A stretch of 64,000 nucleotides of DNA from Mojavia pulchra JT2-VF2. Lineage in GTDB: Bacteria; Cyanobacteriota; Cyanobacteriia; Cyanobacteriales; Nostocaceae. The notes below the pieces were generated by a model, which searched no databases, was not told where the DNA came from, and was given only the letters and a program-made list of their open reading frames with translations. This document shows, one piece after another, positions 14,902 to 37,393 of the stretch; the first letter of the stretch is position 1, and each line of letters opens with the position of its first letter. The translations under genes were made by a program, and so were the position numbers. The stretch is from the NCBI GenBank assembly GCA_019359325.1, contig JAHHHN010000006.1, positions 1 to 64,000 of the forward strand, written 5' to 3'.

Positions 14902-17900
14902 CTACGCTAGACTCAAATTAACTCGCACAATTACATCATTGTGATCTTTATCACCACCACCAGCTAGATCCTCAAAGCCAAAGATGTTATTGCCTAACAT
15001 CCGAATGTGATCTACCTTGTCTGAGTTAGCTCCCAAGAATGGAAAGTAAACAGACGGATCGTTATTGGAATTACTGTCTAGTATGGCATCCGGTCTGCCA
15101 TCAACAATTAGAAATGGCACGAAGATACCACCAGGTGTAAAACTTCCATTGTAAGTCGCCGTACCTTGGTTATTTACTGCTAAGTCAATACCCGCAACAC
15201 GACCACGAACAGCTGCTTGAGTATAACCAGCCTGCCCTGGGAGGATATCTGCTTGCCCATCGTTATTCGTGTCAATGCCACCGTCTTCATCAACTGTTTG
15301 ATAAAAGCCGACAAAGTTATTAAAGACCGCTTCCCTGTTGACAACAAACTCAGCTTTTACAAGTTGTGTAACGCCTCGAAAATCCAGCTGTTCTCCGTGT
15401 GGCTTGCCTTGCAAACTTGTACCTAAAGTTAAAGAATCATTTGTGGATTGAATTTTTACCACCAGATCCTTAAATTCGGTACTGTTATTGCTACCATCCT
15501 TCCAAGCAAGGGAGAAACTATCATCACCCAAGTCTGCAATTTTAACTGTGGAAACGTCAGCAAATAGTACCTCTGTTGTGGAGGTGACTCCAGATATCAC
15601 CGCAGCACTGGAGCTATTGCGTACCAAGTAGAACCGCAAGTAATCACCGGAGTTAAATTCCAGCAGACGTGTGAGATTCTCGCTACTAAAGCCATTAGGA
15701 GAATTAGCGATCGCAGACAAAATCTCCTTGCTTCTTGCTAAAGCTGCTTGAGTATAACCTGATGTACCAGGAGCAATACCGTTGATTGTACCTTGAGCAT
15801 CGTCAACAACAAAAACTCCTAGTTCATTCACCAAATTAGAACTACGTCCATTGAGAGTTATTTTGAGCTTGGCCTTAATGGAGTTACTTGAGATGGTAAA
15901 TACATCATTGTCAGCGTTCTTTTTCAGCTTAGGCATTGCTGAACCTGTAGCAAGTGCAAACGACTCTGGTTTATTTTCATCTCCTAAATGAATTATCCCA
16001 TACTCACCATTCTGTTTGCGCGTAAACAGAACAGGTTCACCCTTGGGTAAATCGAGCAAATCGGCAAAACTGCCAACAATCTCTTGAGTGTTGCCAGTAG
16101 GAGTTAATGATACTTCTAGGCGAACTTCCTCAGCTGTATCAGTACCACTTTCATGAGTTCCTTCATCATGACTATGCCCTCCTCCCAGATAAGTAAACAC
16201 CTGAATTTGCTCTTTACCAGCAGGTACAGAACCTTTGGCAATAGTAGTAATGTTGGCGTTATTGGTTTGGGTAGTAAAACCATTTGGTTCGTCTGGTCTT
16301 TGGAGGATATAACCAGATGTTACATCTACCTCTCCTGTATAGCTAGTACCATAGGGCTGGAATTCTTTAGATAGCAGCGCTGTATCATGTGCTGTGTCTT
16401 TGCCAACTAAAGTACCTTTTTCATTAATTAATTTGCCATCGTAGAGTTCTACTAATCCGCGTCCACCAATGCCTTGAGCAACTATGATGTCGTCATAGTT
16501 GTCTCCATTGACATCGCCAAGTGCTAGGTTAATCTTGCCCTTGAAGACTTCATGGTGGAATGGGTTAATACGCACTTTCAGCTGGTAATCTTTACCACTG
16601 TAGATCTCAATGATTGGTGCAACTCCACCGCCTAAACCAGCAACTATATCTGCAAAGCCATCGCCATCAATGTCACCAGATGCGACTGAGGCAACTTGAT
16701 CGGTTGTCGCAGCAATATCTTGAAAAGGATTGAACTCTTTAATCAGTAAGTCTTTGTCATTACCATTGAGATTGGTTTGGGGCTTGGTTTGTAAAGTGCC
16801 GTTTAGAGAAAGTGTTCCGACGTAGGGGGCTAGATTAGGCTCTGTTTGGGGATTAGTAAAGCGTCCTTTTTCGATAAAGGAGAGTTCGCCAGTAGCATCT
16901 TGGAATTTACCATCCCCACCTGTAATTTTGATACTACCTTTGTTGTCTACTGTGAAGTCTGGATTAATTTTACCTTGGGCGCTTTCTGTACCAAACAGCT
17001 TTCCACCGTTATTTCCTTTGAATTCAAAGGTTTTTGTTTGCAAAGTTGGGTCTGTTTCACCTAATACTTTTGGGTCTGAATTGGCAGTGAATTCACCTGT
17101 AGACGGATTCCTCTTCAAGTAGGTTGACCCTTCCAGATCAGTCAATTGATAAGATGCTTGAGTATCTTTCCCAAAAACATCTGCCCGAGCTAAATCAGGT
17201 TTTAATTCCGCGCCACCGTTACCTAATTCATATTCGGCATTAATGTGTAATTTGCCTTCCTGAGCTTCAATTAGTCTCTTGCCATCAAATACCTTAATAG
17301 TGAACTTATCAGTAGACTTCTCTAAGGAACTCTGTATTGTGATGACATCAGTAACGTTATCAGTTACATTCTTATTCTCTTCATCTTTGCGCCCTTTGTA
17401 ACCAACATCAGCAATTGCGACGTCTATCCCTTTCTTGAAGGATTTACCATAAGGCGTCAGATTAATACTTTGATTGTTGGCTGCGAACAAATTATTCGCT
17501 CTAAATAAGTCTATTTGTCCACCATCATTTGAACCTAGACCTAACCAAATGTTTTTTGTATTAAGGATAGGCCTAACAACCATCATCATTCCTGCATCTT
17601 CATGGAAGAGAATGTGACAGTGGTTCACATAGCTGCCAGGAAAGTCCTCAAACTTCATGAGGATTTTGACTTCTGACGCTTTACCTTTAGCAGGGTCATC
17701 AGTTTGAATATTGAATGGTGTACCGTAGGGGTTTTCTGGTGTAGCAGTGCCATCAATATAGGCAGGTGGTAGCGCGATCGTGTCACTTAAAACCCTAGCA
17801 AGGTAGGTGCCATCTATATCATCAACCGAAATACCATTAATTGATAAGACAGTAAAATCATTCTGGTGAATGTGAAATGGATGCCATTCTGACAAAGGAA

Positions 17901-19659
17901 TATTTGCATCTGGCGGCAAATTCGGATTTGGCAATCCAGATCTATTAACAATATTCCAGATCTCTGTCGTGCCCAGCATGGGCATAGCTAGCGGAGTCAT
18001 ACCCCCACCAGGCTCTGTGGAAAAATACCTACCATTAATGGTATAAGTTCCCTCAAAGCTTTCTACTTCCGTGTCTCTGGGAAAATTACCTTCGAGTAGC
18101 GCACCACCTATATTTGCGTCCCAAATATAAGTTCTTTCTCGATCAAACTCTCCTGCTTGCGCTTTGTTTACAAGGTCATTAATCTTTTGACTCTGCTCAA
18201 CTAGTGTGTTGTAAGGTTCAGGAAAAGCCCCTTGAGGAATTGGATCTCCAGCGACTTCAACTGTTGCTAAAACTTGAGATCCCCAAATTAAGTGGCCATC
18301 TTGAAATCCCCGGTCTTTAGTTAACGTTGGAGCGTTCTCACCCAAAAGCTCTTCTGTACCATTGGAAAGGAAATAATATTTACCTGGTTTATCAAACCAA
18401 TGTTGTACCGCTAAACGAGAGCCAGGATTCAGGACTGGAAGCTCTGTTACTTGTCTTCTAACATTAGTAACTACACCAGCAGCATCACCATCAATAGCCA
18501 CCAAGCTAACTGTTTGGGGAACCAACTTCGTCCCATCGTCGTATAGCAGTTGAATTACATGGAAAGTATTCGTACTCATGTTGGCGAATGAAAACAAGTC
18601 CCATTCACCAGTTTTCAGGTCTATAGTTGGGTTGTATTGTCCATTGACAGTATGAATAACGTTTTCTACAGGTGTGATTAAACCACCACTACCGTATTCG
18701 GGGCTAAAAGTTGCCGGATCTCCTGTGGGTTTGTCTGATTTGTATAATCCAGGCTTGGCGTTAAACCCTGCAAAAGGAGCATCAGAAAGTTCATAAACTT
18801 TCTGACCATTTTCCTCCGCCAGTACTTGCACAGGGGTACCCGCAGGAACTTTGAGATTTGGATCTGGGCTTGTATTTAGAGGGTCGTTCGGACTTGGAGA
18901 TCTAAGTACTTGCTGGATTCCAAAACTATTAATAGCCATATTGAAATATGGCCTCGTTGTGGGATTATATTTATCCAGATCTGGGAGGTTATAAGGAGGG
19001 TTAACAGCTAAAAGTCCACCCAGCCCTGAATTAACTTGCTCATTGGTTCTTCCGTGCAGGTGGGGATGGTACCAGTCAAGTCCGATAAAGTGATTGTCTG
19101 GAATTTCTACACTTATATCCCTAGTTTCGCCTGGTTTAACGCCAACAAGAACATTATCACCATCTCCTAAAGGTGAGACATGCAGCCCATGGGTATGTAA
19201 GTTACTTGTCTGAGTTAAATCATTCTCAAGTTTAATTTTGAGCGTGTCTCCAGGCTCTGTAATCAGCATTGGCCCTGGAATTAGACCGTTATATCCTCGG
19301 AGAATCTCATAGGGTGTTTTTTCGTTATTCAGCCAGGGAATTATCCCATCTCCTGATTTGACAATCCCAAATCCATCAATCTGAGTCTGGAGCAAGTCCG
19401 ACATTTTCAGGGTGACGTTCAGTTCTTTATCTGGCCCCCAACTCGAATAATAACTACCAGTTGCACCCTGTTCATTAAATTGACCATTTTTATAGTTTTG
19501 ATGATCCTTTTGCCAATCTATAAAAGGGTCTTTAAAAACAACTTTCTGGTCAGGATGAGGTAATACTTTTAAATAACCCGCCGCATCAAATCCTTGGCTC
19601 CAACTATCAAAATTACTTTTACCAATGACATATGCATTCTGTAATGTGGGATTAGCCAT
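14902..19659 (-). CDS. Giant multicopper oxidase with FG-GAP and DUF4114-like C-terminal domains
   Basis: The first 700 residues are a multicopper oxidase. Copper ligands are visible in LHTHGLH (155-157), WYHPHLHG (196-203), WHPFHIHQ (592-599) and VNHCHILFHEDAGMM (678-692), covering type 1 Cys, His and Met and the trinuclear site. Next come FG-GAP/VCBS calcium-loop repeats (about 985-1080, SGDIDGDGFADIV and LGDVNGDNYDDIIV). Two DUF4114-like regions lie near 1270-1400 and 1435-1585, the last ending with DHNDVIVRVNLSL. There is no classical signal peptide, so secretion may use a type I route, as for other cyanobacterial exoproteins (inference). ATG 19659 follows AAGGAG at good distance; an in-frame GTG at 19680 would include that site. 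Possible roles are extracellular oxidation of metals or phenols. Confidence 0.9.
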   Translation of the reverse strand: MANPTLQNAYVIGKSNFDSWSQGFDAAGYLKVLPHPDQKVVFKDPFIDWQKDHQNYKNGQFNEQGATGSYYSSWGPDKELNVTLKMSDLLQTQIDGFGIVKSGDGIIPWLNNEKTPYEILRGYNGLIPGPMLITEPGDTLKIKLENDLTQTSNLHTHGLHVSPLGDGDNVLVGVKPGETRDISVEIPDNHFIGLDWYHPHLHGRTNEQVNSGLGGLLAVNPPYNLPDLDKYNPTTRPYFNMAINSFGIQQVLRSPSPNDPLNTSPDPNLKVPAGTPVQVLAEENGQKVYELSDAPFAGFNAKPGLYKSDKPTGDPATFSPEYGSGGLITPVENVIHTVNGQYNPTIDLKTGEWDLFSFANMSTNTFHVIQLLYDDGTKLVPQTVSLVAIDGDAAGVVTNVRRQVTELPVLNPGSRLAVQHWFDKPGKYYFLSNGTEELLGENAPTLTKDRGFQDGHLIWGSQVLATVEVAGDPIPQGAFPEPYNTLVEQSQKINDLVNKAQAGEFDRERTYIWDANIGGALLEGNFPRDTEVESFEGTYTINGRYFSTEPGGGMTPLAMPMLGTTEIWNIVNRSGLPNPNLPPDANIPLSEWHPFHIHQNDFTVLSINGISVDDIDGTYLARVLSDTIALPPAYIDGTATPENPYGTPFNIQTDDPAKGKASEVKILMKFEDFPGSYVNHCHILFHEDAGMMMVVRPILNTKNIWLGLGSNDGGQIDLFRANNLFAANNQSINLTPYGKSFKKGIDVAIADVGYKGRKDEENKNVTDNVTDVITIQSSLEKSTDKFTIKVFDGKRLIEAQEGKLHINAEYELGNGGAELKPDLARADVFGKDTQASYQLTDLEGSTYLKRNPSTGEFTANSDPKVLGETDPTLQTKTFEFKGNNGGKLFGTESAQGKINPDFTVDNKGSIKITGGDGKFQDATGELSFIEKGRFTNPQTEPNLAPYVGTLSLNGTLQTKPQTNLNGNDKDLLIKEFNPFQDIAATTDQVASVASGDIDGDGFADIVAGLGGGVAPIIEIYSGKDYQLKVRINPFHHEVFKGKINLALGDVNGDNYDDIIVAQGIGGRGLVELYDGKLINEKGTLVGKDTAHDTALLSKEFQPYGTSYTGEVDVTSGYILQRPDEPNGFTTQTNNANITTIAKGSVPAGKEQIQVFTYLGGGHSHDEGTHESGTDTAEEVRLEVSLTPTGNTQEIVGSFADLLDLPKGEPVLFTRKQNGEYGIIHLGDENKPESFALATGSAMPKLKKNADNDVFTISSNSIKAKLKITLNGRSSNLVNELGVFVVDDAQGTINGIAPGTSGYTQAALARSKEILSAIANSPNGFSSENLTRLLEFNSGDYLRFYLVRNSSSAAVISGVTSTTEVLFADVSTVKIADLGDDSFSLAWKDGSNNSTEFKDLVVKIQSTNDSLTLGTSLQGKPHGEQLDFRGVTQLVKAEFVVNREAVFNNFVGFYQTVDEDGGIDTNNDGQADILPGQAGYTQAAVRGRVAGIDLAVNNQGTATYNGSFTPGGIFVPFLIVDGRPDAILDSNSNNDPSVYFPFLGANSDKVDHIRMLGNNIFGFEDLAGGGDKDHNDVIVRVNLSLA

Positions 19660-20224
19660 TATGGAACTGTCTCCTTTCACAACTATTAATAGGAAATTGG
19701 GGCAACATTACTTAGGGTAGTGTTGTCCTCATATCAACAGCATTTTTTGCTATTAAATCAAAAGTTTCTCATTACTTTCATAGGGTATAAGAAAGCTGAG
19801 AAAAACATATATTAATTTATCATTCCTTTAATTCAATAGCTATATTTTAGCGTGTCACTTATTCACTCAATAGATTTTTAATACTCCCTTAAATAAACTT
19901 TGCCAATCCTTCATTAAAAAGTTTAAAGTTTAATTTGTTTTTTATGATTAGCAGAGCAAGCTAGTAAGGCAAAATGTGGAAATTACTTAAATAATCCACA
20001 TTTGGACAATTATTTGCTTAAAAACCTTTTTATCAAATCATTTATGCTTAATAACTTTGAAAAAAGAATAATTTTAGTAGCGTGTCTACCCAAATTGTTG
20101 GGTTGGCTGTAGATGAAAGCTATACTAACCAACAGTTTCTAACTTTGAACAAATATTTTGAGTTGGCGTGCTAGTAGTGGTTAATCTCATTAGTTTTGAT
20201 GGGTTAATGTACCATCGCAACCCT

Positions 20225-22213: not shown

Positions 22214-22561
22214 ATGAAATACGAAAATGCGGTTTTGGATGACAAAGAACTTCAAGAAAATCTAAAACGAATTAATCCTAAGTTTGGTGATTTTGTAACT
22301 CGGGTAGCAGGTGAAGCTTGGGGGTTGCCGTTAATTGACCAAAAAACTAAGGCTCTTATAACGATCGCTGTTGATGTAGTCAATCAGGATCACGTAGGCC
22401 CGGGTAATCCTTTTGGAGCTCATGTTAATATGGCTCTTCAGCAAGGGGCGACTCGTGAGGAAATTGAAGAGCTGCTATTGTTCTTGTGTGTTTATGCAGG
22501 TTTCAATAAGGTGGCTGGCTGTTTTGGCGCTCTCAGTGAAGTATTGAATACATCTTCATAA
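22214..22561 (+). CDS. Carboxymuconolactone decarboxylase (CMD/AhpD-like) family protein
   Basis: This is a 115-residue single-domain protein of the CMD fold. It has the family pattern DQKTKALITIAVDVV, GAHVNMALQQGATREEIEELL and YAGFNKVAG. It lacks the CxxC pair of AhpD peroxidases (the sequence is LFLCVYAGF), so a thiol peroxidase role is not supported. Its closest visible relative is the N-terminal domain of the fusion protein encoded at 24694. In Synechocystis a CMD gene (slr1853, from memory) heads the icfG cluster, and this gene holds the same relative place. The exact substrate is unknown. Confidence 0.88.
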   Translation: MKYENAVLDDKELQENLKRINPKFGDFVTRVAGEAWGLPLIDQKTKALITIAVDVVNQDHVGPGNPFGAHVNMALQQGATREEIEELLLFLCVYAGFNKVAGCFGALSEVLNTSS

Positions 22562-23135: not shown

Positions 23136-24692
23136 ATGGTTTCAACAATAAATAAGGCAACAAAGGTTGATTATTCAGCACGGGATCATAAAGGCAAAGT
23201 AGCCTTCTACGTCCTCTTGTGGAAACGCCAAGGAATCTCCTTAGAACTTTTTGACGACTATTGGAGAGATGTACATGGCCCAGTCTGTGCCAGACTACCT
23301 GGTCAGTATCAATACTGGCAGTTTCATGTGGCGCATAACGAAGGGGGTCTGTGGCCGGAAATCGCAGGTTTAGATTATAAATGGGACACAGAAGATAACT
23401 TTGATGGCATTGCAGAATTAACCTTCGAGAGTGAAGCAGACCGCGAAACATGGTTCAAAGCGTCAGCTATTTTGATGGATGACGAACACAATTTGTTCCG
23501 CAAAGCGATAGGCTACAACACCAGTCCGGGTAATTCCATCACCTATGTAGACCGGATTCCCACAGGCGACCCCAACGGTGAAGTTGGAGCCATCAAATTC
23601 CATGTGCTGGTCAAAAAAGCTGATGGCGTTAGTGATGAAGCTTTTCGTCGTTATTTAACTGAGACTTTTGCTCCGGTTTTCAGCAGCAGTGATTCGCTAC
23701 TCAAATTGCGTTTGCATCTATTTGAAGAAGTAGACAATTCTCGTCCAGATGCAGCCGGAGTCAGCCACTACGAGCCACCAGCCAAGCAATATCATGCGGC
23801 TTATGAAATTGCTTTTGCAAATCATCTAGAAAGAGAGAAGTTTTTTGCTTCTTCTGAGTATGCGATCGCTACTAAAGATGCCGCAAAATACATCAAACAA
23901 ATCCAACCCTTTCCCGAAAGAAACGCTTACACCTTTGTATACAACTCTCAGATGACCTTAGCTGGTCAACGGAGTTCCTCAGTAGCAGGACTGATCACAG
24001 AAATTGGCGCAGTTAATCAGATTAAGGAGGATATAGAATCTCTCATGCTCAATTACAATCTCTTCGCCCCACAAACCAATGGCCATGCTTCTGCTCAAAC
24101 AACTCAAAGCAAGCCAACATCAACGAAAAAACGCACCAATTATTACGAAGGTTTGTCAGCTGACTATTCACGTCCAGGGCTAGTTAGCTCCTATGTGGCG
24201 AAGAAACTGATCGAGGATGCTGAAAAAATTATCACCCTCAAAGAACCAAAGTTGCCGGAAATTGGCCCTAACTACACTCTCGAACAAATTGAAAGAGAAA
24301 ACAGAGAGTGGTGGCCTACTCATTGTGAAGCATTGAGACAAGGACGAGGCGATATCTTGACAGGAGAATATCGTGACGATCTAGTTTATTTGTGCCAGGA
24401 TGGCCCCTACCGCGGCTTAGAACAACAAAAAGAAAGAGAAAAGCACTGGTGGGCATTGATTGCTCAACCAGGAGTCACTATGTGCTGGCCCATCGTCATG
24501 TTTTATGGTGAACATACTTACTTCGAGTGGAAGTGTGTGGATGATGAAACAAACGAAACTCTAGCCAAAGGTAATGTCACATGGGTGCGCCGTGGACACC
24601 GAGGTGCCTGCTATCTGAAAACAGAGCAGCTTACCTTCTACCGTGATGTTTATGCTCCTAACGAACTACTGACATTGATCACCACAGCCTGA
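23136..24692 (+). CDS. Tandem EthD-domain protein with C-terminal SnoaL-like domain
   Basis: Two EthD-type ferredoxin-like domains span about residues 20-130 (VAFYVLLWKRQGISLELFDDYW, DVHGPV) and 150-265 (IKFHVLVKKADGVSDEAFRRY). EthD proteins are dimeric alpha/beta-barrel proteins associated with oxidation or polyketide-type chemistry. A Ser/Thr/Gln-rich linker (about 305-345) leads to a SnoaL/NTF2-like cone (about 385-512). The product of 518 residues is unusual; I know of no defined function. The stop overlaps closely with the next ATG (TGAGATG), so the two genes are translationally coupled. The 487 bp at 23267-23753 are identical to part of that next gene. Confidence 0.82.
   Translation: MVSTINKATKVDYSARDHKGKVAFYVLLWKRQGISLELFDDYWRDVHGPVCARLPGQYQYWQFHVAHNEGGLWPEIAGLDYKWDTEDNFDGIAELTFESEADRETWFKASAILMDDEHNLFRKAIGYNTSPGNSITYVDRIPTGDPNGEVGAIKFHVLVKKADGVSDEAFRRYLTETFAPVFSSSDSLLKLRLHLFEEVDNSRPDAAGVSHYEPPAKQYHAAYEIAFANHLEREKFFASSEYAIATKDAAKYIKQIQPFPERNAYTFVYNSQMTLAGQRSSSVAGLITEIGAVNQIKEDIESLMLNYNLFAPQTNGHASAQTTQSKPTSTKKRTNYYEGLSADYSRPGLVSSYVAKKLIEDAEKIITLKEPKLPEIGPNYTLEQIERENREWWPTHCEALRQGRGDILTGEYRDDLVYLCQDGPYRGLEQQKEREKHWWALIAQPGVTMCWPIVMFYGEHTYFEWKCVDDETNETLAKGNVTWVRRGHRGACYLKTEQLTFYRDVYAPNELLTLITTA
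23267..23753 (+). repeat. Copy 1 of a 487-bp identical direct repeat
   Basis: By eye this block matches 25203-25689 base for base (offset 1936), while flanking sequence differs. It encodes most of both EthD domains. A further near-identical stretch follows at about 23791-23910, matching about 25727-25846. Such a sharp-edged identity suggests recent gene conversion or duplication. Confidence 0.9.
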
Positions 24693-24693: not shown

Positions 24694-27600
24694 ATGACAC
24701 AGGAGATAGCACATAAAAATGCCGTCCTAGATGATCAAGAACTGCAAAAGAATTTAAAACAAATCAATCCCAAATTTGGTGACTTTGTAATTCGGGTAGC
24801 AGGTGAAGCTTGGGGTTTGCCGCTGATTGATCAAAAAACTAAGGCTTTGATTACCATTGCCATAGATGTAGTCAATCAAGACCATAGAGGTTCAGGCAAC
24901 CCTTTCGCCGCCCATGTAAAGATGGCTCTCAAACAGGGAGCCACCCGCGATGAAATTGAAGAGCTGCTGCTGTTCCTATGCGTTTATGCGGGTTTTAATA
25001 AGGTCGCGGCTTGCTTCGGTACCCTGAATCAGATTTTTGACGATTTCAATTGCACGCCAAGGACAGCAGCAATGATTTCAGCAATTCCAGATTCAAAACA
25101 AGTTGATTATTCCGCACGGGATCGTAAAGGCAAAGTAGCCTTCTACGTCCTCTTGTGGAAACGAGAGGGTATTTCCCTAGAGCTTTTTGATAGTTATTGG
25201 AAAGATGTACATGGCCCAGTCTGTGCCAGACTACCTGGTCAGTATCAATACTGGCAGTTTCATGTGGCGCATAACGAAGGGGGTCTGTGGCCGGAAATCG
25301 CAGGTTTAGATTATAAATGGGACACAGAAGATAACTTTGATGGCATTGCAGAATTAACCTTCGAGAGTGAAGCAGACCGCGAAACATGGTTCAAAGCGTC
25401 AGCTATTTTGATGGATGACGAACACAATTTGTTCCGCAAAGCGATAGGCTACAACACCAGTCCGGGTAATTCCATCACCTATGTAGACCGGATTCCCACA
25501 GGCGACCCCAACGGTGAAGTTGGAGCCATCAAATTCCATGTGCTGGTCAAAAAAGCTGATGGCGTTAGTGATGAAGCTTTTCGTCGTTATTTAACTGAGA
25601 CTTTTGCTCCGGTTTTCAGCAGCAGTGATTCGCTACTCAAATTGCGTTTGCATCTATTTGAAGAAGTAGACAATTCTCGTCCAGATGCACCAGGAGTTAG
25701 CCACCATGAGCCAGAAGCTAAACATTATCATGCGGCTTATGAAATTGCTTTTGCAAATCATCTAGAAAGAGAGAAGTTTTTTGCTTCTTCTGAGTATGCG
25801 ATCGCTACTAAAGATGCCGCAAAATACATCAAACAAATCCAACCTTTTCCCGAAAGAGCCAGTTATACCTTTGTTTACGATGGCAAACTTACTTTAGCTG
25901 GTCAACGTAGTGCCAAGGTAGCGTCGCTGATTCAAAGTGTAGGAGCCACTAATCAATTAAAACAGGACATAGTATCTCTTATGAACGGACAGATAGCGTC
26001 GCTGATTCAAAATGTAGGAGCCAGCAATCAACACCAAGAGGACGTAGTATCTCTTATGCCTAGCCAGGTAAATGGAAAATCTAGCAGTTTAGGTCATTAT
26101 CTCCAAGGTTTGCAACACGTAGGCATAACTGTCAATGATATGACAAAATCTCTAGAATTTTACGTTGACGTGTTGGGTGGCAAACCAGCAATAGGCGGGG
26201 ATGGATTTATTGGTGATGAGTTGCACAATCTCCTATTCCAAAAAGAGGATTTGGAAGCATGGAAGCAAGGTTTAAATCCCAAAACCATAGGTGTGCCTAA
26301 CATCAGAGACGGTTCCCAAGAAGCGTTGGATGTTAGATTCATTTCCTTTGGTAACACTTGTGTTGAACTCATCCATTTTAGAGATGCTCATTTAGACTAT
26401 AAAGCACCCAATTGTATTGGCAAGATTCCTTCTGGTATTGGTTTTGTCAACGCGCCACACCTTTCTTTTCATGTAAAAGATAATGTGGATCTTGATCAGT
26501 TCGCCAAAATGTTAGAAGATGAATGTCAAAAACGCGGACTGACTAACGTAGTTGCTAACCGAATTATTCATATTGATTCGGAAACTGCCAGAAAAAATTC
26601 TCCCGAAAAATATGCCAAATTAGACTTGATTGGGGATTTTGATGGCTGGTTATTATTTTACTGTAAAGGCCCAAGTGGGGAACAGTTAGAATTCAACCAA
26701 GTTAAAAGGAAAGCTAAAGAAAAATTTAGCTTTGCTCAAAAAGAATATAACCTCAGCAACGGCACAAATTACTGGTTTTACAATAATGTCGCCCCTACAA
26801 ACACCAATAATAATCACCGTTTGTATGGCAGCTTCAGTTCTGCTGTGAATGCTCCAGCAGAAAAAATTTGGCAAGTTTGGTTAGACCAAGCTTACACCGA
26901 GAAATTTAACATTTTAGAACGTTACAGTGATGGGGTTTTACGCGAAGTCAAAATGCCAGGCATGGAGATGAAGCAAAGAATTACTATTGATCAACAAGCG
27001 AATACTGTAACGATTAATGTTGTAGATCACCCCCTATTTACAGGTCGGTTTATCAATTATCTCTATCCACCTCAAGAGCCAAGTACTTTACCGATAGTGA
27101 CTTACACTATTGATTTGCAACCCATCAATGCAACTTCACTAGAGCATAAAGATGCCCAAGGATTTATTGAGGCAGCTAAACCGGAAAATGTGAAACAGGC
27201 GGTGTATCAGCTTAAAGCAGCTGTTGAAAATGGCATAAATACAAATAAGGAGGAAAAATCCGTGACCCAATCAATCACACGTCCTGGTACTAAGTCTGAA
27301 ATTGTCAGACGGATGTTTGAAGCTGGTGAATCGATGAATGTGGACAACTTCGTCAAATTCTACACTGATGATGCCCACTATCAATTTAGTAACTTCCCAG
27401 TTGCCTACGGCCCTCAAGGAATTAAAGAAACCTCTGTTGGCTTCTTGCAAAAAGTTGCTAAAGTTTACCACCACATCACCAACATCTGGGAACAGGGCGA
27501 CACAGTTATCTGTGAAATGGAAGTTACCTATATTCGTCATGATGGTAAAGTTTTCAGACTTCCCTGTTGTGATACTATCGTTTTCAAAGGCGATAAAGTC

Positions 27601-28047
27601 CAAGAGTTAAGAATTTACATGGACATCAGTCCAGTATTCCAAACAGAAGAAGTCAAACCCCAAGCTTCTCTACCTAGCGGTGCTTTGCTAGAAAGAATTG
27701 GCAAAATGTATGAGGCATTGCACGCGGAAAATTGGGATGAATTTATGAGCTTCTTCACACCCAACCTACTCTACAAAGTTGGCGCTAACGAGCCTGTGAT
27801 CGGGCCAGAAGCTTGTCGTGACTTTTTGGTTAATATCTACAAAGTCCTGAAACTCACAACTCATAATGCTCGTGGCACTTGGGAAGTTGGTAATACCGTG
27901 ATTTTGGAAATGGATGCTAACTACGTCAACAAAGTTGACAAACGGTTTATCCAAGTTCCTTGTACTGATATCTATCGCTTTGAAGGCGATCGCATCTATG
28001 AATGGCGGGTATACCCAGATCCTTCTCAGCTGAATCTCAAATTCTAA
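24694..28047 (+). CDS. Seven-domain fusion: CMD, EthD, EthD, VOC, SRPBCC, SnoaL, SnoaL
   Basis: This 1117-residue cytoplasmic protein reads continuously through seven small domains: CMD (about 8-118), EthD (145-255), EthD (276-390), VOC/glyoxalase-like (465-680, starting LQHVGITVNDMTKSLEFY), SRPBCC ligand-binding (705-845, FSSAVNAPAEKIWQVWLD) and two SnoaL/NTF2-like cones (865-985 and 995-1115). All are folds that bind or transform small hydrophobic or aromatic molecules. The chain could be a multi-step enzyme or a channelled pathway; the substrate is unknown. The N-terminal domains are paralogous to the separate CMD and EthD proteins upstream. Internal start signals survive at 25072 and 27262. 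A 25-residue tandem duplication sits before the VOC domain. The arrangement suggests fusion of a former operon. Confidence 0.85.
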   Translation: MTQEIAHKNAVLDDQELQKNLKQINPKFGDFVIRVAGEAWGLPLIDQKTKALITIAIDVVNQDHRGSGNPFAAHVKMALKQGATRDEIEELLLFLCVYAGFNKVAACFGTLNQIFDDFNCTPRTAAMISAIPDSKQVDYSARDRKGKVAFYVLLWKREGISLELFDSYWKDVHGPVCARLPGQYQYWQFHVAHNEGGLWPEIAGLDYKWDTEDNFDGIAELTFESEADRETWFKASAILMDDEHNLFRKAIGYNTSPGNSITYVDRIPTGDPNGEVGAIKFHVLVKKADGVSDEAFRRYLTETFAPVFSSSDSLLKLRLHLFEEVDNSRPDAPGVSHHEPEAKHYHAAYEIAFANHLEREKFFASSEYAIATKDAAKYIKQIQPFPERASYTFVYDGKLTLAGQRSAKVASLIQSVGATNQLKQDIVSLMNGQIASLIQNVGASNQHQEDVVSLMPSQVNGKSSSLGHYLQGLQHVGITVNDMTKSLEFYVDVLGGKPAIGGDGFIGDELHNLLFQKEDLEAWKQGLNPKTIGVPNIRDGSQEALDVRFISFGNTCVELIHFRDAHLDYKAPNCIGKIPSGIGFVNAPHLSFHVKDNVDLDQFAKMLEDECQKRGLTNVVANRIIHIDSETARKNSPEKYAKLDLIGDFDGWLLFYCKGPSGEQLEFNQVKRKAKEKFSFAQKEYNLSNGTNYWFYNNVAPTNTNNNHRLYGSFSSAVNAPAEKIWQVWLDQAYTEKFNILERYSDGVLREVKMPGMEMKQRITIDQQANTVTINVVDHPLFTGRFINYLYPPQEPSTLPIVTYTIDLQPINATSLEHKDAQGFIEAAKPENVKQAVYQLKAAVENGINTNKEEKSVTQSITRPGTKSEIVRRMFEAGESMNVDNFVKFYTDDAHYQFSNFPVAYGPQGIKETSVGFLQKVAKVYHHITNIWEQGDTVICEMEVTYIRHDGKVFRLPCCDTIVFKGDKVQELRIYMDISPVFQTEEVKPQASLPSGALLERIGKMYEALHAENWDEFMSFFTPNLLYKVGANEPVIGPEACRDFLVNIYKVLKLTTHNARGTWEVGNTVILEMDANYVNKVDKRFIQVPCTDIYRFEGDRIYEWRVYPDPSQLNLKF
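25072..25074 (+). promoter_or_regulatory. Likely ancestral start codon at the CMD-EthD junction
   Basis: An in-frame ATG (residue 127 of the fusion) is preceded by CAAGGACAGCAGCA. This closely resembles CAAAGGACAGCAAGC before the real ATG of the neighbouring EthD gene at 23136. The resemblance extends across the start, which suggests this was once the start of a separate EthD gene before the CMD stop codon was lost. It may still be weakly used. Confidence 0.6.
25203..25689 (+). repeat. Copy 2 of a 487-bp identical direct repeat
   Basis: This block is identical by eye to 23267-23753 and lies inside the fusion gene. The sequences just outside both blocks differ at many positions, so identity is confined to this tract. 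Confidence 0.9.
25921..26070 (+). repeat. In-frame 75-bp tandem duplication
   Basis: Two adjoining 75-bp units encode ASLIQSVGATNQLKQDIVSL and ASLIQNVGASNQHQEDVVSL plus short tails. They lie at the border between the second EthD domain and the VOC domain. A similar single unit ends the EthD part of the upstream gene. Confidence 0.85.
27247..27264 (+). promoter_or_regulatory. Internal ribosome-binding site and GTG start inside the fusion gene
   Basis: AAGGAGG (27247-27253), eight bases before an in-frame GTG (27262), is a near-perfect start signal. It would yield a 261-residue tandem SnoaL protein beginning MTQSITRPGTKSEIVRRMFE. It lies exactly at the border between the SRPBCC and SnoaL parts. 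Either the SnoaL pair is also made alone or this is a fossil of a former gene. Confidence 0.7.
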
Positions 28048-28239: not shown

Positions 28240-28875
28240 ATGACAAAAGAATTTAAAGGAAAAATTGGTGTACTTATTGAAGAACATTTTGATGCCACAG
28301 AATTTCGTCGCTTCAATGAGTACTTCCCTGAACAGGGCTATGAAGTAGAGTACATTTCTCATCTGTGGGGCAATAAAGAGCTACATTTCGGGTCTAACCC
28401 CGAAAATGACCAAATAGAATATCACGTTACAGTTACCACCGAAGTCAATGACATTGACCCTGCTGACTACAAAGGTATTATTTGCATTGGTGCCTATGCT
28501 ATGGATCGCCTGAGATATCAGGTAAATGTTAAGAAGGGTCAAAAAAATCAAGCTCCAGCAGTTGCCTTTCTTCGGCAAGCTATAAACACAGATAATGTCA
28601 AATTAGGAACAATTTGCCATAGTTTGTGGCTTTTCTGTGCCGATCCAGATTTGATTAAAGGTAAAAAAGTAACTTGTGCCCATAACATCATTTGTGATGT
28701 CGAGAATGCAGGTGCAGACGTTGTTTATGACAACGATGTTACTGCTGATTTAGTTATAGATGGCAATCTGATTACAGGGAAGCATCCTGGAGTGGTAGAC
28801 GAATTCATGGAAACCTTTGTGAAAGAAATTGAGAAAACTAGCTCTCGAAATCAGGAATTGGCTCAAAAAATCTGA
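28240..28875 (+). CDS. DJ-1/PfpI family protein
   Basis: This is a 211-residue glutamine-amidotransferase-like protein of the DJ-1/PfpI superfamily. It has KIGVLIEEHFD at the start, IICIGAYAMDRLRY, and the nucleophile elbow GTICHSLWLFCAD with Cys followed by His. The C-terminal LITGKHPGVVDEFMETFV is also typical. Members include chaperones, glyoxalase III-type enzymes and deglycases; which activity applies here is not shown. In the Synechocystis icfG cluster a gene of this family (slr1854, from memory) follows the CMD gene, matching this position. It probably forms a transcript with the upstream fusion gene, 190 bp away, and ends at a strong palindrome. Confidence 0.88.
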   Translation: MTKEFKGKIGVLIEEHFDATEFRRFNEYFPEQGYEVEYISHLWGNKELHFGSNPENDQIEYHVTVTTEVNDIDPADYKGIICIGAYAMDRLRYQVNVKKGQKNQAPAVAFLRQAINTDNVKLGTICHSLWLFCADPDLIKGKKVTCAHNIICDVENAGADVVYDNDVTADLVIDGNLITGKHPGVVDEFMETFVKEIEKTSSRNQELAQKI

Positions 28876-28955: not shown

Positions 28956-30125
28956 TTAAGCTTGACTTTTTCCTAATACGTCTAGAACAACTGCTGTCAA
29001 ACAAGCACAAGCAACCAGTGTAATTAAAACTACAGCAGGTACACTGGCACCAGCAATAGTCAGGAACAAAACAAACCCTCCTGCTCCCAGACGATAAGCA
29101 CTCAAAATCCTACCTTTGCGATTTTTCTCCAGAATACAGGTCGTTAAGTTAATCACGCCTAAAACCATTAAGCACAGTGTCACAGCACCACAAAAAAGCC
29201 AGCGGTCTTTTTCTGGTAGTACATTCGTTGCATTTATGGAAATCACATGCTCAACTCCTACTCCTGTTGCCGCCAAACCAATAGCTAGAAGGAGGTGAGA
29301 ATATAGCCAAGTGAGAAATATATTAATTCTACCAGCCTTCATAGTCTCTAGTGGTGATCCATCGACGCTATCGAAGTAAAGCCACCAGAAGCTGAAAGCA
29401 ATGCTCATACCTAACAAAGCGATCGCAGTAGATGACATCACCCATTCCTTTTGAGCTCCACCCCTAACTACAGCGGCAACAGACTCACCTAAAACGATCA
29501 TGGTAAAAAGTCCAAGTCGCTCTGGCATATGGGAAATATCTGGTGTGATCTCAGTAGCTAAATGGCCTGTACCTAAAGGAGTTATAAACTCTAAAATCAA
29601 CCCCAGTACCCAAAGTCCAAACCGCCAAGGAGGAGGTATAAAAAGTGAGAATAACCAACAACCAGCACCCAGGCTAAAACCCCAAACATACCGATTGAGT
29701 AGCGGACGGGCTATTGGAACATGATATTTAGCTATAAGAAATTGAATAATGAGAATACTGCGAGCGCCTACATAAGCAATTGCAAAACCAACAGAAGATG
29801 TACTGAGACCGTGATGTACATTTACTGCTAAAGCAGCAATCATCATCATTTGTATGAGGGTTAACAGGCGATCGCTAAGATCATCAGTATCAAACAATGT
29901 GGCGTAAAAAGTGGCACCTAGCCAACAAGACCAAATTGGTATAAAAAGGGCAATAAAACCAAGGATGCCTGCAACAGAAATATCTTTGCTCAAATTGTGA
30001 GACAATTCAGCGATCGCCACCACAAATGTTAGATCATAAAAAAGCTCTAGCCAGGTAGCACGTCTTTCTTCTCCATGAGCCTCGCCAATACGCAATCTTG
30101 GCGGCTGCCATAATTTTTTGTTCAT
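28956..30125 (-). CDS. Low temperature requirement protein A (LtrA) family membrane protein
   Basis: This is a 389-residue polytopic membrane protein with about ten to twelve hydrophobic segments. The family signature near the N-terminus is clear: RRATWLELFYDLTFVVAIAEL. HMPERLGLFTMIVLGESV in the middle is also diagnostic. LtrA was named in Listeria for growth at low temperature, but its molecular function is not known. It lies on the opposite strand and splits the icfG-like cluster between the DJ-1 and AGE genes, so it may be a later insertion. Its start is the ATG at 30125; no better start is visible. Confidence 0.9.
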   Translation of the reverse strand: MNKKLWQPPRLRIGEAHGEERRATWLELFYDLTFVVAIAELSHNLSKDISVAGILGFIALFIPIWSCWLGATFYATLFDTDDLSDRLLTLIQMMMIAALAVNVHHGLSTSSVGFAIAYVGARSILIIQFLIAKYHVPIARPLLNRYVWGFSLGAGCWLFSLFIPPPWRFGLWVLGLILEFITPLGTGHLATEITPDISHMPERLGLFTMIVLGESVAAVVRGGAQKEWVMSSTAIALLGMSIAFSFWWLYFDSVDGSPLETMKAGRINIFLTWLYSHLLLAIGLAATGVGVEHVISINATNVLPEKDRWLFCGAVTLCLMVLGVINLTTCILEKNRKGRILSAYRLGAGGFVLFLTIAGASVPAVVLITLVACACLTAVVLDVLGKSQA

Positions 30126-30725: not shown

Positions 30726-32552
30726 ATGAACAAGCAAAGCTTCTCTTTCTCAGACACGATCACTGGCTACGTCACCAACTTTGACACTAGTGAGAAATCC
30801 TTTGGCATCAAAACATCAGACGAGCGGGAATATAAAGCATACCTCACGCCGACTGTGTATGCCAGAATCGCTCAAAACCTAGAAGAGCCATACAGAGATT
30901 GCACAGGCGAGATTGAACAACTGCTAACTCCTGGCCAGCACGTATTTGCCTACGGTATTTTTTATCCTCAGGGAGATGGACACAAATTTGAAGTTAAGTC
31001 CTTAGTGTTCCCTAGCGATAGCCCCGGTACGTATCGGCACGAAGAACCAGACTGGTGGGTTAAGCAAATACGCTCCATTGCTGATAGCTACCTGAGGTGG
31101 CAGTTTGGCTATCCTGAAAAAGAGATTAATTACCAGGAATACCGTACTTATTTGCATCTTGCTGGTAGTAAAAAGCGCGACGACTTTTTGCAAGAAACTG
31201 ATACTATTTCTCGTCTCGTCTATGGTTTTGCTTCAGCTTATCTGCTGACAGGCGAAGACCGCTTTCTTGAAGGAGCAGAAAGAGGCACAGAGTACCTGCG
31301 CGAACACATGCGCTTCTACGACCCCGACGAAAACCTCATCTACTGGTATCACGGAATTCAAGTTACCGGACGTCGGGAACAAAAGTTGCTCACCTCTGAG
31401 TTTGGTGATGACTACGATGCTATCCCTGCCTACGAACAGATTTACGCCTTAGCTGGCCCCATTCAGACCTACCGGATTACAGGTGATCCTCGCATCCTTA
31501 AAGATGCGGAAATGACCGTCGATTTGTTCGACAAATTCTACTTGGACAAAGAAGGTGGTGGCTATTTCTCTCATATCGACCCAATCACCCTTGACCCTCG
31601 TGCCGAGTCTTTAGGTCGTAACCGCGCCCGCAAAAACTGGAACTCTGTTGGTGACCATGCTCCTGCTTATCTGATTAATCTGTGGTTGGCAACAGGAGAC
31701 AAAAAATACGCTGACTTCCTAGAATATACATTTGACACGATCGCCAAATACTTCCCCGACTATGATAACAGCCCCTTTGTCCAAGAGAAGTTCTTTGAAG
31801 ACTGGAGCCACGACCAAACATGGGGTTGGCAGCAAAACCGCGCCGTCGTTGGTCATAACCTGAAAATTGCTTGGAACTTGATGCGGATGAATTCCCTCAA
31901 GCCTAAAGATGAGTACGTACAGTTAGCAGAAAAAATTGGCTACTTAATGCCCAAAGTTGGTAGCGACCAACAAAGAGGCGGCTGGTACGACGTAGTAGAA
32001 CGCGTCCTGGGTGAAGGAGAAGAACAGCATCGTTTTGTCTGGCACGATCGCAAAGCTTGGTGGCAGCAAGAGCAGGCTATCCTTGCCTACATGATCCTGC
32101 ACGGTATTCTCAATAAGCCGGAATACGAACGCCAGGCCCGCGAAGCCGCAGCCTTCTATAATGCCTTCTTCCTAGATCATGATGACGGTGCGGTTTACTT
32201 CAATGTCTTAGCGAACGGATTGCCCTACTTGTTGGGTAACGAACGCTTCAAGGGTTCTCACTCCATGAGTGCCTACCACTCAACGGAACTGTGCTATTTG
32301 GCAGCAGTCTACACCAATCTGCTGATTACCAAGCAACCAATGGACTTCTACTTTAAGCCCCAACCAGGTGCGTTCAAGGACAACATCCTGCGGGTACAAC
32401 CAGATATCCTGCCTCCTGGTAGCATCAAGATTGGTGCTTGCTGGGTCGACGAACAACCCTACAACAATTTTGACGCTGATGCTTTGACGGTAAAATTACC
32501 AGACACCAAAGCCCAAGTTAAAGTCAAAGTTCAAATTGTCCCTAACGCGTAG
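30726..32552 (+). CDS. N-acylglucosamine 2-epimerase (AGE) family protein
   Basis: This 608-residue protein carries an (alpha/alpha)6-barrel of the AGE/cellobiose epimerase type (about 110-560), with repeated helices such as AYLLTGEDRFLEGAERGTEYL and NSVGDHAPAYLINLWLATGDKKY. An extra N-terminal domain of about 100 residues precedes it. Sugar epimerase or isomerase activity is inferred from the fold; the substrate is unknown. The match in family and place to Synechocystis slr1855 (from memory) supports membership in the icfG cluster. It is the first gene of a run through 37849. The STAS gene follows 19 bp after its stop. Confidence 0.88.
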   Translation: MNKQSFSFSDTITGYVTNFDTSEKSFGIKTSDEREYKAYLTPTVYARIAQNLEEPYRDCTGEIEQLLTPGQHVFAYGIFYPQGDGHKFEVKSLVFPSDSPGTYRHEEPDWWVKQIRSIADSYLRWQFGYPEKEINYQEYRTYLHLAGSKKRDDFLQETDTISRLVYGFASAYLLTGEDRFLEGAERGTEYLREHMRFYDPDENLIYWYHGIQVTGRREQKLLTSEFGDDYDAIPAYEQIYALAGPIQTYRITGDPRILKDAEMTVDLFDKFYLDKEGGGYFSHIDPITLDPRAESLGRNRARKNWNSVGDHAPAYLINLWLATGDKKYADFLEYTFDTIAKYFPDYDNSPFVQEKFFEDWSHDQTWGWQQNRAVVGHNLKIAWNLMRMNSLKPKDEYVQLAEKIGYLMPKVGSDQQRGGWYDVVERVLGEGEEQHRFVWHDRKAWWQQEQAILAYMILHGILNKPEYERQAREAAAFYNAFFLDHDDGAVYFNVLANGLPYLLGNERFKGSHSMSAYHSTELCYLAAVYTNLLITKQPMDFYFKPQPGAFKDNILRVQPDILPPGSIKIGACWVDEQPYNNFDADALTVKLPDTKAQVKVKVQIVPNA

Positions 32553-32571
32553 TCTGCTTGAAGAAATCACT

Positions 32572-32979
32572 ATGGATATCATTATCAAGACACTACAAGT
32601 AACTGCACTCAGCACTGCCCAAAGTGATACTGCTCCAGCAGTACACGAGCAAGTGACTGTAGTAGAACTAGATGGCGATGTGGATGGCAAAACTGCTCCT
32701 GAAGTTCAAGCTCAAGTTTTACCCTTAGTTCAACCAGGTAGCAAAATCCTGCTAGATTTGACAAACGTGCCTTATATGTCCAGTGCAGGTTTACGGACAT
32801 TGCTATTGCTACATCGGCAGTTTCTTGGTAAAGAAGGACAGCTTGTACTGGTAGGAGTTGCCGAAGAAATTCAAGATACTATGTCTATCACTGGGTTTCT
32901 CAACTTTTTTACTATTTGCGAAACCTTGGATTCAGGCTTAGAATCTCTCAATCTCAAGGTACACGCTTTACCTGCCTAA
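32572..32979 (+). CDS. STAS-domain anti-sigma factor antagonist (first of two)
   Basis: This is a 135-residue STAS protein of the SpoIIAA/RsbV type. The sequence VTVVELDGDVDGKTAPEVQ leads to the phosphorylation site region VPYMSSAGLRTLLLLHRQF, whose Ser would be phosphorylated by an RsbW-like kinase and dephosphorylated by a PP2C phosphatase. Both partners are encoded downstream (37394 and 35849). ATG 32572 is preferred; the open frame begins earlier and would overlap the AGE gene. It corresponds by order to slr1856 of Synechocystis (from memory). Confidence 0.9.
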   Translation: MDIIIKTLQVTALSTAQSDTAPAVHEQVTVVELDGDVDGKTAPEVQAQVLPLVQPGSKILLDLTNVPYMSSAGLRTLLLLHRQFLGKEGQLVLVGVAEEIQDTMSITGFLNFFTICETLDSGLESLNLKVHALPA

Positions 32980-33175
32980 ATAAAAACCAGGGGGAGTAAG
33001 TCAAGGCTTACTTCCCCACCCAGGACAAACGCATCTTAGTTTTTGCAATGCACAATTTATCAAGGTTTCATACTATTTAGCATTTATGTAAACCTGGCTA
33101 GAAAAGTCATCCAGAATTTAGATGCGTTTGCTCAACTCCCTACTCCTGTTGTCTTAGCACTCACTACCGAAGAAA

Positions 33176-35293
33176 ATGGAGCGCATCGACATTCATCCAA
33201 CCCATACCCACGAAGGCTTTAAGCTACGTCGGGGTAGGCCTTTTCCTTTTGGTGCCACGCTAGTGCCAGGAGGGGTTAATTTTTCAATATTTTCCAGTCA
33301 CGCCAAATCCTGTTCTCTGGTGTTGTTTAAAAAGCATCAGCCAGAACCAATGGCAGAAATTCCCTTTCCAGACGAGTTCCGGATTGGGAATGTTTTTTGC
33401 ATGATAGTTTTTGATCTCGATTACGAAGACATCGAATATGGCTATCGCATGGATGGCCCATTCGACCCGAAAGCAGGCCACTGGTTTGACAAGAGCAAAA
33501 TCCTCCTAGACCCTTATGCCAAAGTGATTGGGGGACGAGATGTTTGGGGCGTCACGCCAGACTGGAGTGACATATACCATCATCGTGGTCGTATCGTCTT
33601 TGACGACTTTGACTGGGAATCAGACCGTCCTCTGGAAATTCCCCCAGAAGACTTGATTATCTATGAAATGCATGTCCGCAGCTTTACCCGGCATCCATCC
33701 TCTGGGGTGAAGCATCCTGGAACATTTGCAGCCATTAGAGAAAAAATTCCTTACCTCAAAGAGTTGGGTGTCAACTCCATAGAACTCATGCCTGTGTATG
33801 AGTTTGACGAGTTTGAAAATTCTCGTCCCAATCCTCAGACAGGTGAAATGCTGCTGAACTATTGGGGCTACAGCACTGTTGGTTTTTTCGCACCCAAAGC
33901 GGGGTATGCAGCAACCGGCAAGCTGGGAATGCAAGTGGATGAGTTGAAAGCACTCGTCAAGGAGCTCCATGCCAATGGAATTGAAGTAATTCTAGATGTA
34001 GTCTTTAACCATACTGCTGAAGGAAATGAGTATGGCCCGACGATCTCCTTTCGGGGAATCGACAACAAGACTTACTATATGCTGACTCCCGACGGCTACT
34101 ACTATAACTTCAGTGGCTGCGGCAACACTCTCAATTGCAATAACCCGATTGTTCGCAATATTGTACTTGATTGTCTACGCTACTGGGCATCAGAGTATCA
34201 CATCGACGGCTTCCGCTTTGATTTGGCATCAATTCTAGGTCGTGATCCTTGGGGTGCGCCACTAGCAAATCCGCCATTACTGGAAACCCTAGCCTTTGAC
34301 CCCATTCTTGCTAAATGTAAGTTGATTGCAGAAGCTTGGGATGCAGGCGGTTTGTACCAAGTAGGTTCTTTTCCTGCCTTTGGTCGTTGGGCTGAGTGGA
34401 ATGGTAAGTACCGTGATGGTATTCGGAAATTTCTTAAAGGCGAACCTGGTCGAGTCGGAGATATGGCACAACGGCTCCAAGGTTCTCCCGACCTTTATGC
34501 TTGGGCAGGACGCGCACCTGCTACCTCGATTAATTTTATCACTGCCCATGATGGTTTTACTCTTGCTGACCTGGTTTCGTATAACGGCAAGCATAACGAA
34601 GCCAACGGGGAAAACAACAACGACGGCACCAACGATAACGACAGTTGGAATTGTGGGGCAGAGGGATGGACAGAAGATTCTGGTATTAATGCCTTACGGC
34701 TAAGGCAGATGAAGAATGCGATCGCCATGCTACTCGTTAGCCAAGGCGTACCCATGATACTCATGGGTGATGAAGTCGGCCGCAGTCAGCAAGGCAATAA
34801 CAACACCTACTGCCACGACAACGAACTCAACTGGCTAGATTGGAATTTATTAAAGTCAAATGCTAGTCTATTGCAATTTGCCAAGCACTGCATCGCTTTC
34901 CGCAGAGCGCATCCCGCATTAAGAAACCACTGGCATTTCCAAAATCGAGATTATGTTGGTAGTGGCTATGCTGATATTACCTGGCACGGTACCCAAGCTT
35001 GGAATGCAGACTGGTCTGACTCCAACCGTACCCTTGCCTTTATGCTCTGCGGCAAACATGCTAAGGGAGGCACAGTCAACGATAACTATATCTACGTTGC
35101 TATGAATATGCACTGGGAAGCCCACTGGTTTGAGATTCCCAAGCCACCAGAAGGCTTACAGTGGCATATCTTTGCCAATACAGGCGCTTCCCCAACAGAA
35201 ACCAGCTGGGAACCAGAAAAGGAGCCTTTATTGGAGAATCAGCATGGAATATTGCTGGGCGATCGCTCAGTCGTCATTCTTGTCGGAAAATAA
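33176..35293 (+). CDS. glgX: Glycogen debranching enzyme / isoamylase (GlgX-type)
   Basis: The enzyme hydrolyses alpha-1,6 branches of glycogen. A CBM48-like N-terminal domain (about 15-110, PFGATLVPGGVNFSIFSSHA) is followed by the GH13 barrel. The nucleophile Asp349 lies in DGFRFDLAS, the acid Glu386 in LIAEAWD, and the transition-state Asp459 in TAHDGFT. VIFNHT-type (VVFNHTAEGNEYGP) and MGDEVGRSQQGNNN motifs are also seen. The 705-residue length is normal. Its place between two STAS genes, as in the Synechocystis icfG cluster (slr1857, from memory), links partner-switch signalling with glycogen use. The genome may hold other glgX copies. Confidence 0.93.
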   Translation: MERIDIHPTHTHEGFKLRRGRPFPFGATLVPGGVNFSIFSSHAKSCSLVLFKKHQPEPMAEIPFPDEFRIGNVFCMIVFDLDYEDIEYGYRMDGPFDPKAGHWFDKSKILLDPYAKVIGGRDVWGVTPDWSDIYHHRGRIVFDDFDWESDRPLEIPPEDLIIYEMHVRSFTRHPSSGVKHPGTFAAIREKIPYLKELGVNSIELMPVYEFDEFENSRPNPQTGEMLLNYWGYSTVGFFAPKAGYAATGKLGMQVDELKALVKELHANGIEVILDVVFNHTAEGNEYGPTISFRGIDNKTYYMLTPDGYYYNFSGCGNTLNCNNPIVRNIVLDCLRYWASEYHIDGFRFDLASILGRDPWGAPLANPPLLETLAFDPILAKCKLIAEAWDAGGLYQVGSFPAFGRWAEWNGKYRDGIRKFLKGEPGRVGDMAQRLQGSPDLYAWAGRAPATSINFITAHDGFTLADLVSYNGKHNEANGENNNDGTNDNDSWNCGAEGWTEDSGINALRLRQMKNAIAMLLVSQGVPMILMGDEVGRSQQGNNNTYCHDNELNWLDWNLLKSNASLLQFAKHCIAFRRAHPALRNHWHFQNRDYVGSGYADITWHGTQAWNADWSDSNRTLAFMLCGKHAKGGTVNDNYIYVAMNMHWEAHWFEIPKPPEGLQWHIFANTGASPTETSWEPEKEPLLENQHGILLGDRSVVILVGK

Positions 35294-35392
35294 TTCTTTG
35301 TCCTTTGTTATTTATTGTCAAAAAAGAACAATTAAAAATAAATGACAAAAGACTAATTACAAGCTAAAACTTTATACACGGAGGATCAGACC

Positions 35393-35716: not shown

Positions 35717-35848
35717 TTATTAAGAATTGGGGATGAGGAAGAGGTATCAATTATGAAAAATATCATTCAAGTTTAACTTTTCCTACATCCTTAATTTTTT
35801 TCAAAGAAACTGAGAACGGCTCCGATTAGCTACTGCGATAGAAATTTT

Positions 35849-37327: not shown

Positions 37328-37393
37328 TAAGAATTCACCACTCTTCACTACACTTTTTAGACAAATTTATTACTGGTATCGGTGAGATAGTTT

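Follow-up and report, generated by a model that had tools for sequence, protein, structure and literature searches.

How did domains that usually belong to separate small-molecule proteins come to lie in one uninterrupted chain beside a cyanobacterial carbon-regulation operon, and what could such a chain do? The question is raised by an open reading frame of Mojavia pulchra JT2-VF2 (GCA_019359325.1, contig JAHHHN010000006.1, positions 1 to 64,000 of the forward strand; this stretch of 64,000 nucleotides is referred to as the window). The frame at 24694-28047 (+) runs from an ATG through 1117 codons, and an open run of this length at one place has a probability of about 7e-31 on base composition alone. 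Sequence comparison identifies the encoded chain as a product of gene fusion. With moderate confidence, it is read here as a multienzyme that arose by stepwise fusion of neighboring genes in a cluster tied to icfG, with about five units that share a single substrate, a cyclic or aromatic carbonyl metabolite.

Domain content and constraint of the chain

The features of the fused gene, with the evidence for each, are as follows.

24694-28047, +: fused gene, 1117 residues, CMD-EthD-EthD-VOC-SRPBCC-SnoaL-SnoaL (frame and domain profiles)
24712-25038, +: CMD domain, residues 7-115 (Pfam PF02627, 47.1 bits, above the cut-off of 23; purpose-built profile)
25072-25074, +: ATG of Met127 within the linker from CMD to EthD, interpreted as the start codon of a former EthD gene (sequence; methionine excess in such linkers)
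25117-25476, +: EthD domain 1, residues 142-261 (Pfam and purpose-built profile)
25480-25881, +: EthD domain 2, residues 263-396 (purpose-built profile; no separate Pfam call)
25882-26073, +: conserved tail of the EthD pair in two tandem copies, then linker (repeat analysis, linker comparison)
26083-26766, +: VOC domain, residues 464-691 (Pfam PF00903, 28.1 bits, above the cut-off of 20.6)
26818-27231, +: SRPBCC domain, residues 709-846 (AtaL below cut-off here; 16 of 19 family members match)
27262-27264, +: GTG codon of Val857 at the junction of SRPBCC and SnoaL; methionine stands here in many relatives (seam comparison)
27289-27639, +: SnoaL domain 1, residues 866-982 (Pfam and purpose-built profile)
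27688-28023, +: SnoaL domain 2, residues 999-1110 (Pfam and purpose-built profile)

An unbroken frame through these seven domains had been proposed in the initial annotation, and the profiles agree with it, SRPBCC and the second EthD copy being recognized through their families. Pfam called one EthD stretch in the fused protein (PF07110, 50.3 bits, cut-off 22) versus two in a 518-residue paralogue, and both EthD copies of the fused protein were recovered by purpose-built EthD profiles. SnoaL_2 (PF12680) matched two stretches with 96.2 bits (cut-off 27). The SRPBCC domain scored 17.1 bits with AtaL (PF08982), below the cut-off of 27; at E<=0.1, however, 16 of the 19 members of its family matched AtaL (best 1.4e-11) and 15 matched Polyketide_cyc2. 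Against solved structures, the best matches of the SRPBCC profile were weak (best E 0.005) and fell on plant binding proteins, examples being abscisic acid receptors and major latex-like protein. The searches with EthD-EthD and with X188, a 188-residue domain described below, gave chance-level or no matches.

Several polar residues were almost invariant among the relatives. In the VOC domain, H475, E558, H589 and E666 were kept in 34/34, 34/34, 33/34 and 34/34 sequences, respectively, and are likely metal ligands. D950 and D960 of the SnoaL region were invariant in 29/29 sequences and D1074 and D1092 in 19/19, whereas H74 of CMD was conserved in 65/68 and H173 of the first EthD domain in 80/82. 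These residues are of the active-site type, and their catalytic roles are putative. Pairwise ratios of non-synonymous to synonymous substitution (dN/dS) in four genome pairs ranged from 0.014 to 0.319 for every domain and were higher for most linkers; the values are rough as synonymous sites were near saturation in many comparisons and the linkers are short. Judged from these ratios, every domain of the chain is under purifying selection. Five other genomes aligned with the chain over essentially its whole length (86, 77, 69, 69 and 67% identity) with no internal stop, which makes a stop or frameshift error in the window very unlikely. The match in L104 (G751) contains a TAG.

Distribution and fusion origin

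The order of the domains was initially thought to be without a known parallel, which proved incorrect. When domain order was read in 66 sources and 14 further loci, the full seven-domain order was found in 18 genomes, i.e., 15 of the family's 217 genomes plus L061, L062 and L063 from a different family. All domains were near full length in 12 of the 18, and one was shortened in the other six: EthD2 in L037, SRPBCC in L111, CMD in L104, and the start of CMD in L061, L062 and L063. The 15 genomes lie within 24 strong matches in the family (E<=1e-180); of the other nine, eight showed a different domain set and one ran off its contig. With the chain as a query, 46 of 149 relatives were also matched at E<=0.001, as were, at E<=1e-30, 69 of 388 order-level and 25 of 386 phylum-level genomes; each count, like that of the family, includes the window genome, the genome sets are not mutually exclusive, those of the order and the phylum were sampled, and many of the matches cover a single module. 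A pattern scan of named genomes, with a reach limited to close relatives, returned five loci, all cyanobacterial. The architecture is patchy within the family. Distant relatives occur on Roseomonas and Phyllobacterium plasmids and pointed to no clear pathway. For one genome (G085), 38% contamination is on record, yet its locus agrees with the named Mastigocoleus testarum record. L102 was dropped as a duplicate of L034 from the same-order count and from the methionine counts given below, and L038, L040 and L060 were dropped as duplicates of L033, L035 and L037 from the linker comparison, the EthD and CMD trees and the neighbor tally.

That the chain is an operon fused into one polypeptide, as had been suggested, was borne out because separate and partly joined forms coexist with full chains and because methionines are left in the seams. 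EthD-EthD, CMD, VOC, SnoaL-SnoaL and SnoaL are separate genes in L050. L115 carries EthD-EthD-VOC followed by SnoaL-SnoaL, SnoaL, CMD and X188, and L074 carries VOC-SRPBCC next to SnoaL-SnoaL, while L058 and L059 have EthD-EthD-X188, CMD and a six-domain chain. A variant of 1340 residues with two VOC domains is encoded at L065:34-4056 (-). Methionine occurred in 29 of 30 CMD-EthD linkers (9.5 expected from methionine frequency) and, for the passage from VOC or SRPBCC into SnoaL, in 27 of 40 (13.4 expected), counts that treat kindred sequences as independent. Taken apart, the SRPBCC-SnoaL linkers (17/28, 9.0 expected), set beside the VOC-SnoaL linkers (10/12, 4.4 expected), were treated as weak evidence. 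Methionine was present in only 1/27 VOC-SRPBCC and 1/35 SnoaL-SnoaL linkers. The methionine of the EthD2-VOC linker (31/40, 14.7 expected) was set aside as a seam trace, as a conserved tail motif there holds a methionine. In the window, the methionine of the CMD-EthD seam is residue 127, and the SnoaL seam carries the GTG codon.

The same tail motif accounts for a linker peptide considered as a docking signal repeated between all domains, a candidate that was rejected. In the fused gene, this tail is duplicated in tandem at 25916-26058, the copies being 85% identical.

All seven domains are present, as initially annotated; the accompanying view that each is normally a single-domain protein did not hold throughout. 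EthD-EthD and SnoaL-SnoaL were found as ready-made pairs in stand-alone genes; hence, the chain is best seen, on comparison of gene structures, as about four former genes, namely CMD, EthD-EthD, VOC-SRPBCC and SnoaL-SnoaL. EthD and SnoaL proteins are usually dimers when active. Therefore, EthD-EthD and SnoaL-SnoaL are each likely to dimerize within the chain, which would then comprise about five functional units. Seven independent enzymes were ruled out by the EthD1-EthD2 linker (mean of 1 residue in 82 cases), by the single methionine in 35 SnoaL-SnoaL linkers and by the stand-alone pairs.

Partner gene, gene conversion and the icfG setting

The genes around the fusion in the window are listed below.

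22214-22561, +: separate CMD gene, 115 residues (frame and Pfam)
23136-24692, +: partner gene, 518 residues, EthD-EthD-X188 (frame and profiles)
23286-23705, +: gene conversion tract, 420 nucleotides of the partner gene that recur without a difference at 25222-25641 in the fused gene (sequence comparison)
24126-24686, +: X188 domain of the partner gene
28240-28875, +: DJ-1/PfpI family gene (Pfam)
28956-30125, -: LtrA gene, which breaks up the cluster (annotation)
30726-37849, +: icfG operon with GlcNAc 2-epimerase-like, STAS, GlgX, STAS, IcfG (GAF-SpoIIE) and HATPase genes (annotation)
14902-19680, -: multicopper oxidase, 1592 residues, with FG-GAP-like and DUF4114 regions (annotation)

The separate CMD and EthD-EthD genes upstream of the fusion had been overlooked. 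They are the only other matches to the chain in the window genome at E<=0.001, with identities of 80% for the CMD protein and 88% for EthD-EthD of the 518-residue protein to the corresponding modules, and a PF07110 search of the genome gave two matches, one per EthD gene. Both an EthD-EthD-X188 gene and a separate CMD gene were present at all 18 same-order loci. The stop codon of the partner gene ends 1 nucleotide before the ATG of the fused gene; the gap is also 1 nucleotide in L033, L034, L035, L037, L103 and L111 (7/18 genomes with the window) and 3-262 nucleotides in the remaining 11, with starts called mechanically. Given the 1-nucleotide gap, translation of the fused gene is probably coupled to that of EthD-EthD-X188.

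The 420 nucleotides shared by the two genes are flanked by divergent sequence. Third-position identity of the EthD pairs was 0.93 within the window genome versus 0.62 to the nearest other fusion, and the EthD tree paired the window copies with each other (100/95) and likewise those of Nostoc sp. 106C (100/94). The VOC tree, in contrast, groups the fusions across genomes. Gene conversion, acting in some of the lineages, is the best explanation of this pattern. The CMD tree set most fused CMDs apart from separate ones, with weak support and exceptions. A strong conversion signal between adjacent EthD modules was also seen in L034, L105 and L113, and the copies stay apart in other lineages, e.g., L035 and L061-L064. 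Conversion may be a sign that both proteins need matching barrels, or it may be a by-product of tandem repeats. The window copy of X188 has no Pfam match, and mean column identity across 22 members of the domain is 86%. X188 stands alone in L041, L054, L079, L095, L096, L097 and others, often beside CMD and DJ-1. The known version of the cluster was initially described as having only a CMD gene before the DJ-1 gene; in many relatives, the CMD gene at this place is accompanied by X188, often together with EthD-EthD, and the window itself likewise has separate CMD and EthD-EthD-X188 genes.

Downstream, the fusion is followed by DJ-1, by LtrA on the opposite strand, and then by the six consecutive genes of the icfG operon, which upholds the proposed icfG setting. 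In the excerpted text of published work, the Synechocystis genes slr1852-1862 are described as a salt-repressed operon (PMC8670252), Slr1861 is an anti-SigC factor within a carbon-status cascade (PMC12329169), and slr1853 encodes a CMD protein increased under ethanol (PMC3564720). Over 66 loci, the neighbors were DJ-1 (39), GlcNAc epimerase (36), GlgX (32), STAS (27), multicopper oxidase (18, relatives of the 1592-residue protein of the window), SDR (17), OprB (15) and DUF4432 (10). The loci were chosen since they or their relatives match the chain, locus ends lower the counts, L090 and L101 are one stretch counted twice, and some genomes give several loci. The LtrA gene was found in four loci (window, L034, L036, and L078). 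In L070, 16 kb hold GlgX, STAS, HATPase, CMD, X188, IcfG, an amylase-type gene, EthD-EthD, an outer-membrane efflux gene, VOC and multicopper oxidase; this genome of 2.6 Mb belongs to the same class as the window genome and, judged by its size, presumably comes from a marine picocyanobacterium. In the annotated cyanobacterial neighborhoods, no polyketide synthase was identified, the one exception being a solitary gene for a ketoacyl synthase some 20 kb upstream.

Two loci deserve mention in their own right. At L044:10622-12130, a 502-residue protein with a Nif11 leader-like domain, two SnoaL domains and one ABM domain adjoins a six-domain chain. L100, a plasmid of Nostoc sp. NIES-3756, carries a version of the cluster with PP2C, anti-sigma, CMD, AtaL-like, aldose 1-epimerase, glucose 1-dehydrogenase, VOC, NHL-repeat and DJ-1 genes.

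Function and comparison with known systems

In the multienzyme reading, the chain would act jointly with EthD-EthD-X188, in a link to carbon status, and its units would run successive non-redox steps (isomerization, cyclization, hydration or decarboxylation) on a common substrate. In the VOC unit, H475, E558, H589 and E666 would hold the metal that this unit uses, the ring would be bound and converted by SRPBCC and SnoaL-SnoaL, and joining the units in one chain would fix their stoichiometry. The product could then be exported and oxidized by a multicopper oxidase encoded nearby, and expression could be governed by the IcfG partner-switch system. The channeled pathway for a stress metabolite or signal that was proposed initially is conjectural. 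The evidence for this reading lies in the order kept in 18 genomes, the coexisting fusion stages, the seam methionines, the low dN/dS, the kept polar residues and the packing of L070; stepwise fusion of neighboring genes in a small-molecule cluster tied to icfG is supported by these sequence patterns. Several observations weigh against it. Separate CMD and EthD-EthD genes persist beside the fusion, which has not replaced them, and the SDR, DUF4432 and HUMPS-family neighbors at some loci would suit a sugar-derived substrate no less than an aromatic one. Parts of the chain are dispensable in some lineages (EthD2 is mostly lost in L037, SRPBCC in L111 and CMD in L104), SRPBCC is missing from several chains, and the search of the 217 family genomes at E<=1e-180 left 193 without a match. 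Methionine is not in excess at the EthD2-X188 seam (15/34, 12.6 expected), which is likewise a fusion seam.

SRPBCC and SnoaL-type folds frequently bind ligands without catalysis. The main rival, to which we give a limited though appreciable probability, builds on this property and regards the chain as a binding, scavenging or detoxification protein: reactive or hydrophobic compounds would be held in its barrels and cones, no pathway would be run, and the chain might report to the IcfG system. The best solved matches of the SRPBCC profile, weak as they are, are plant binding proteins, and the DJ-1 gene adjoins the fusion; the near-invariance of active-site-type residues in VOC and SnoaL weighs against this rival. 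It is less probable again that the fusion is neutral, with the domains doing unrelated jobs and joined since neighboring genes fuse easily, so that neither a shared substrate nor channeling is involved. Although the many differing partial fusions and losses, and the separate copies remaining alongside, are what such a process would leave, the modules stay adjacent in distant cyanobacteria, marine ones included, even where they are unfused.

Cleavage of the chain after translation into separately acting units would suit the occurrence of these units as separate genes elsewhere and the variable linkers. With no protease among the annotated neighbors (part of the neighbors being annotated) and no common cleavage-like motif seen in the seams by eye, such a polyprotein is highly improbable. 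The identical repeat of 420 nucleotides could mislead short-read assembly into joining separate genes, yet it excludes the CMD-EthD seam and the seams of the later domains, and the same order recurs at 67-86% identity in other genomes, including L035, a complete chromosome by its title. Independent genomes thus rule out an assembly or sequencing artefact, which retains practically no probability.

A bolder form of the multienzyme reading, which we regard as doubtful, is that the single chain makes an undescribed cyanobacterial metabolite switched by IcfG together with glycogen debranching; EthD-EthD-X188 has a barrel in common with it that gene conversion keeps alike, and the two proteins may form mixed barrels and put the pathway together as a single particle. 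Neither the domains nor operon fusion in itself is new; the architecture, which was not described in the open PubMed Central papers searched, the fusion stages and the gene conversion appear undescribed. As many fusion stages survive in living genomes, the locus lends itself well to the question of why enzymes become fused. A small-molecule pathway connected with the icfG operon is indicated as well; CMD, EthD-EthD, VOC, X188 and multicopper oxidase recur as a set in cyanobacteria ranging from Nostoc relatives to small-genome, marine-type forms. The identity of the metabolite would render the link between the icfG operon and carbon status testable.

Among known systems, the Synechocystis icfG operon (slr1852-slr1862) shares the GlcNAc 2-epimerase, STAS, GlgX, IcfG and anti-sigma kinase genes and the CMD gene slr1853 with the window; its excerpted descriptions (PMC8670252, PMC12329169, PMC3564720), which were compared as descriptions and not by sequence, mention no seven-domain chain. 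PcaC, PcaCD and PcaDC have the CMD domain in common with the chain, and PcaCD and PcaDC likewise join CMD to a pathway neighbor, but the chain has no lactonase partner. Membership in PcaC (TIGR02425) was rejected at 38.8 bits against an equivalog cut-off of 155.7, and the PcaCD and PcaDC fusion profiles gave 26.5 bits against 430 and 47.6 against 390, respectively. In fungal aromatic polyketide clusters, as the excerpted account has it, one aromatic pathway draws on both EthD proteins, putatively decarboxylases, and multicopper oxidases (PMC4591646). The fungal proteins are not joined to each other and occur with a polyketide synthase, and the likeness is a lead only. The VOC metalloenzymes FosB, methylmalonyl-CoA epimerase and glyoxalase I are also among the nearest known systems. 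The VOC region of the chain comprises about 230 residues in one chain and aligns to solved structures over short stretches only; its first-strand His motif and last Glu motif align with those of FosB.

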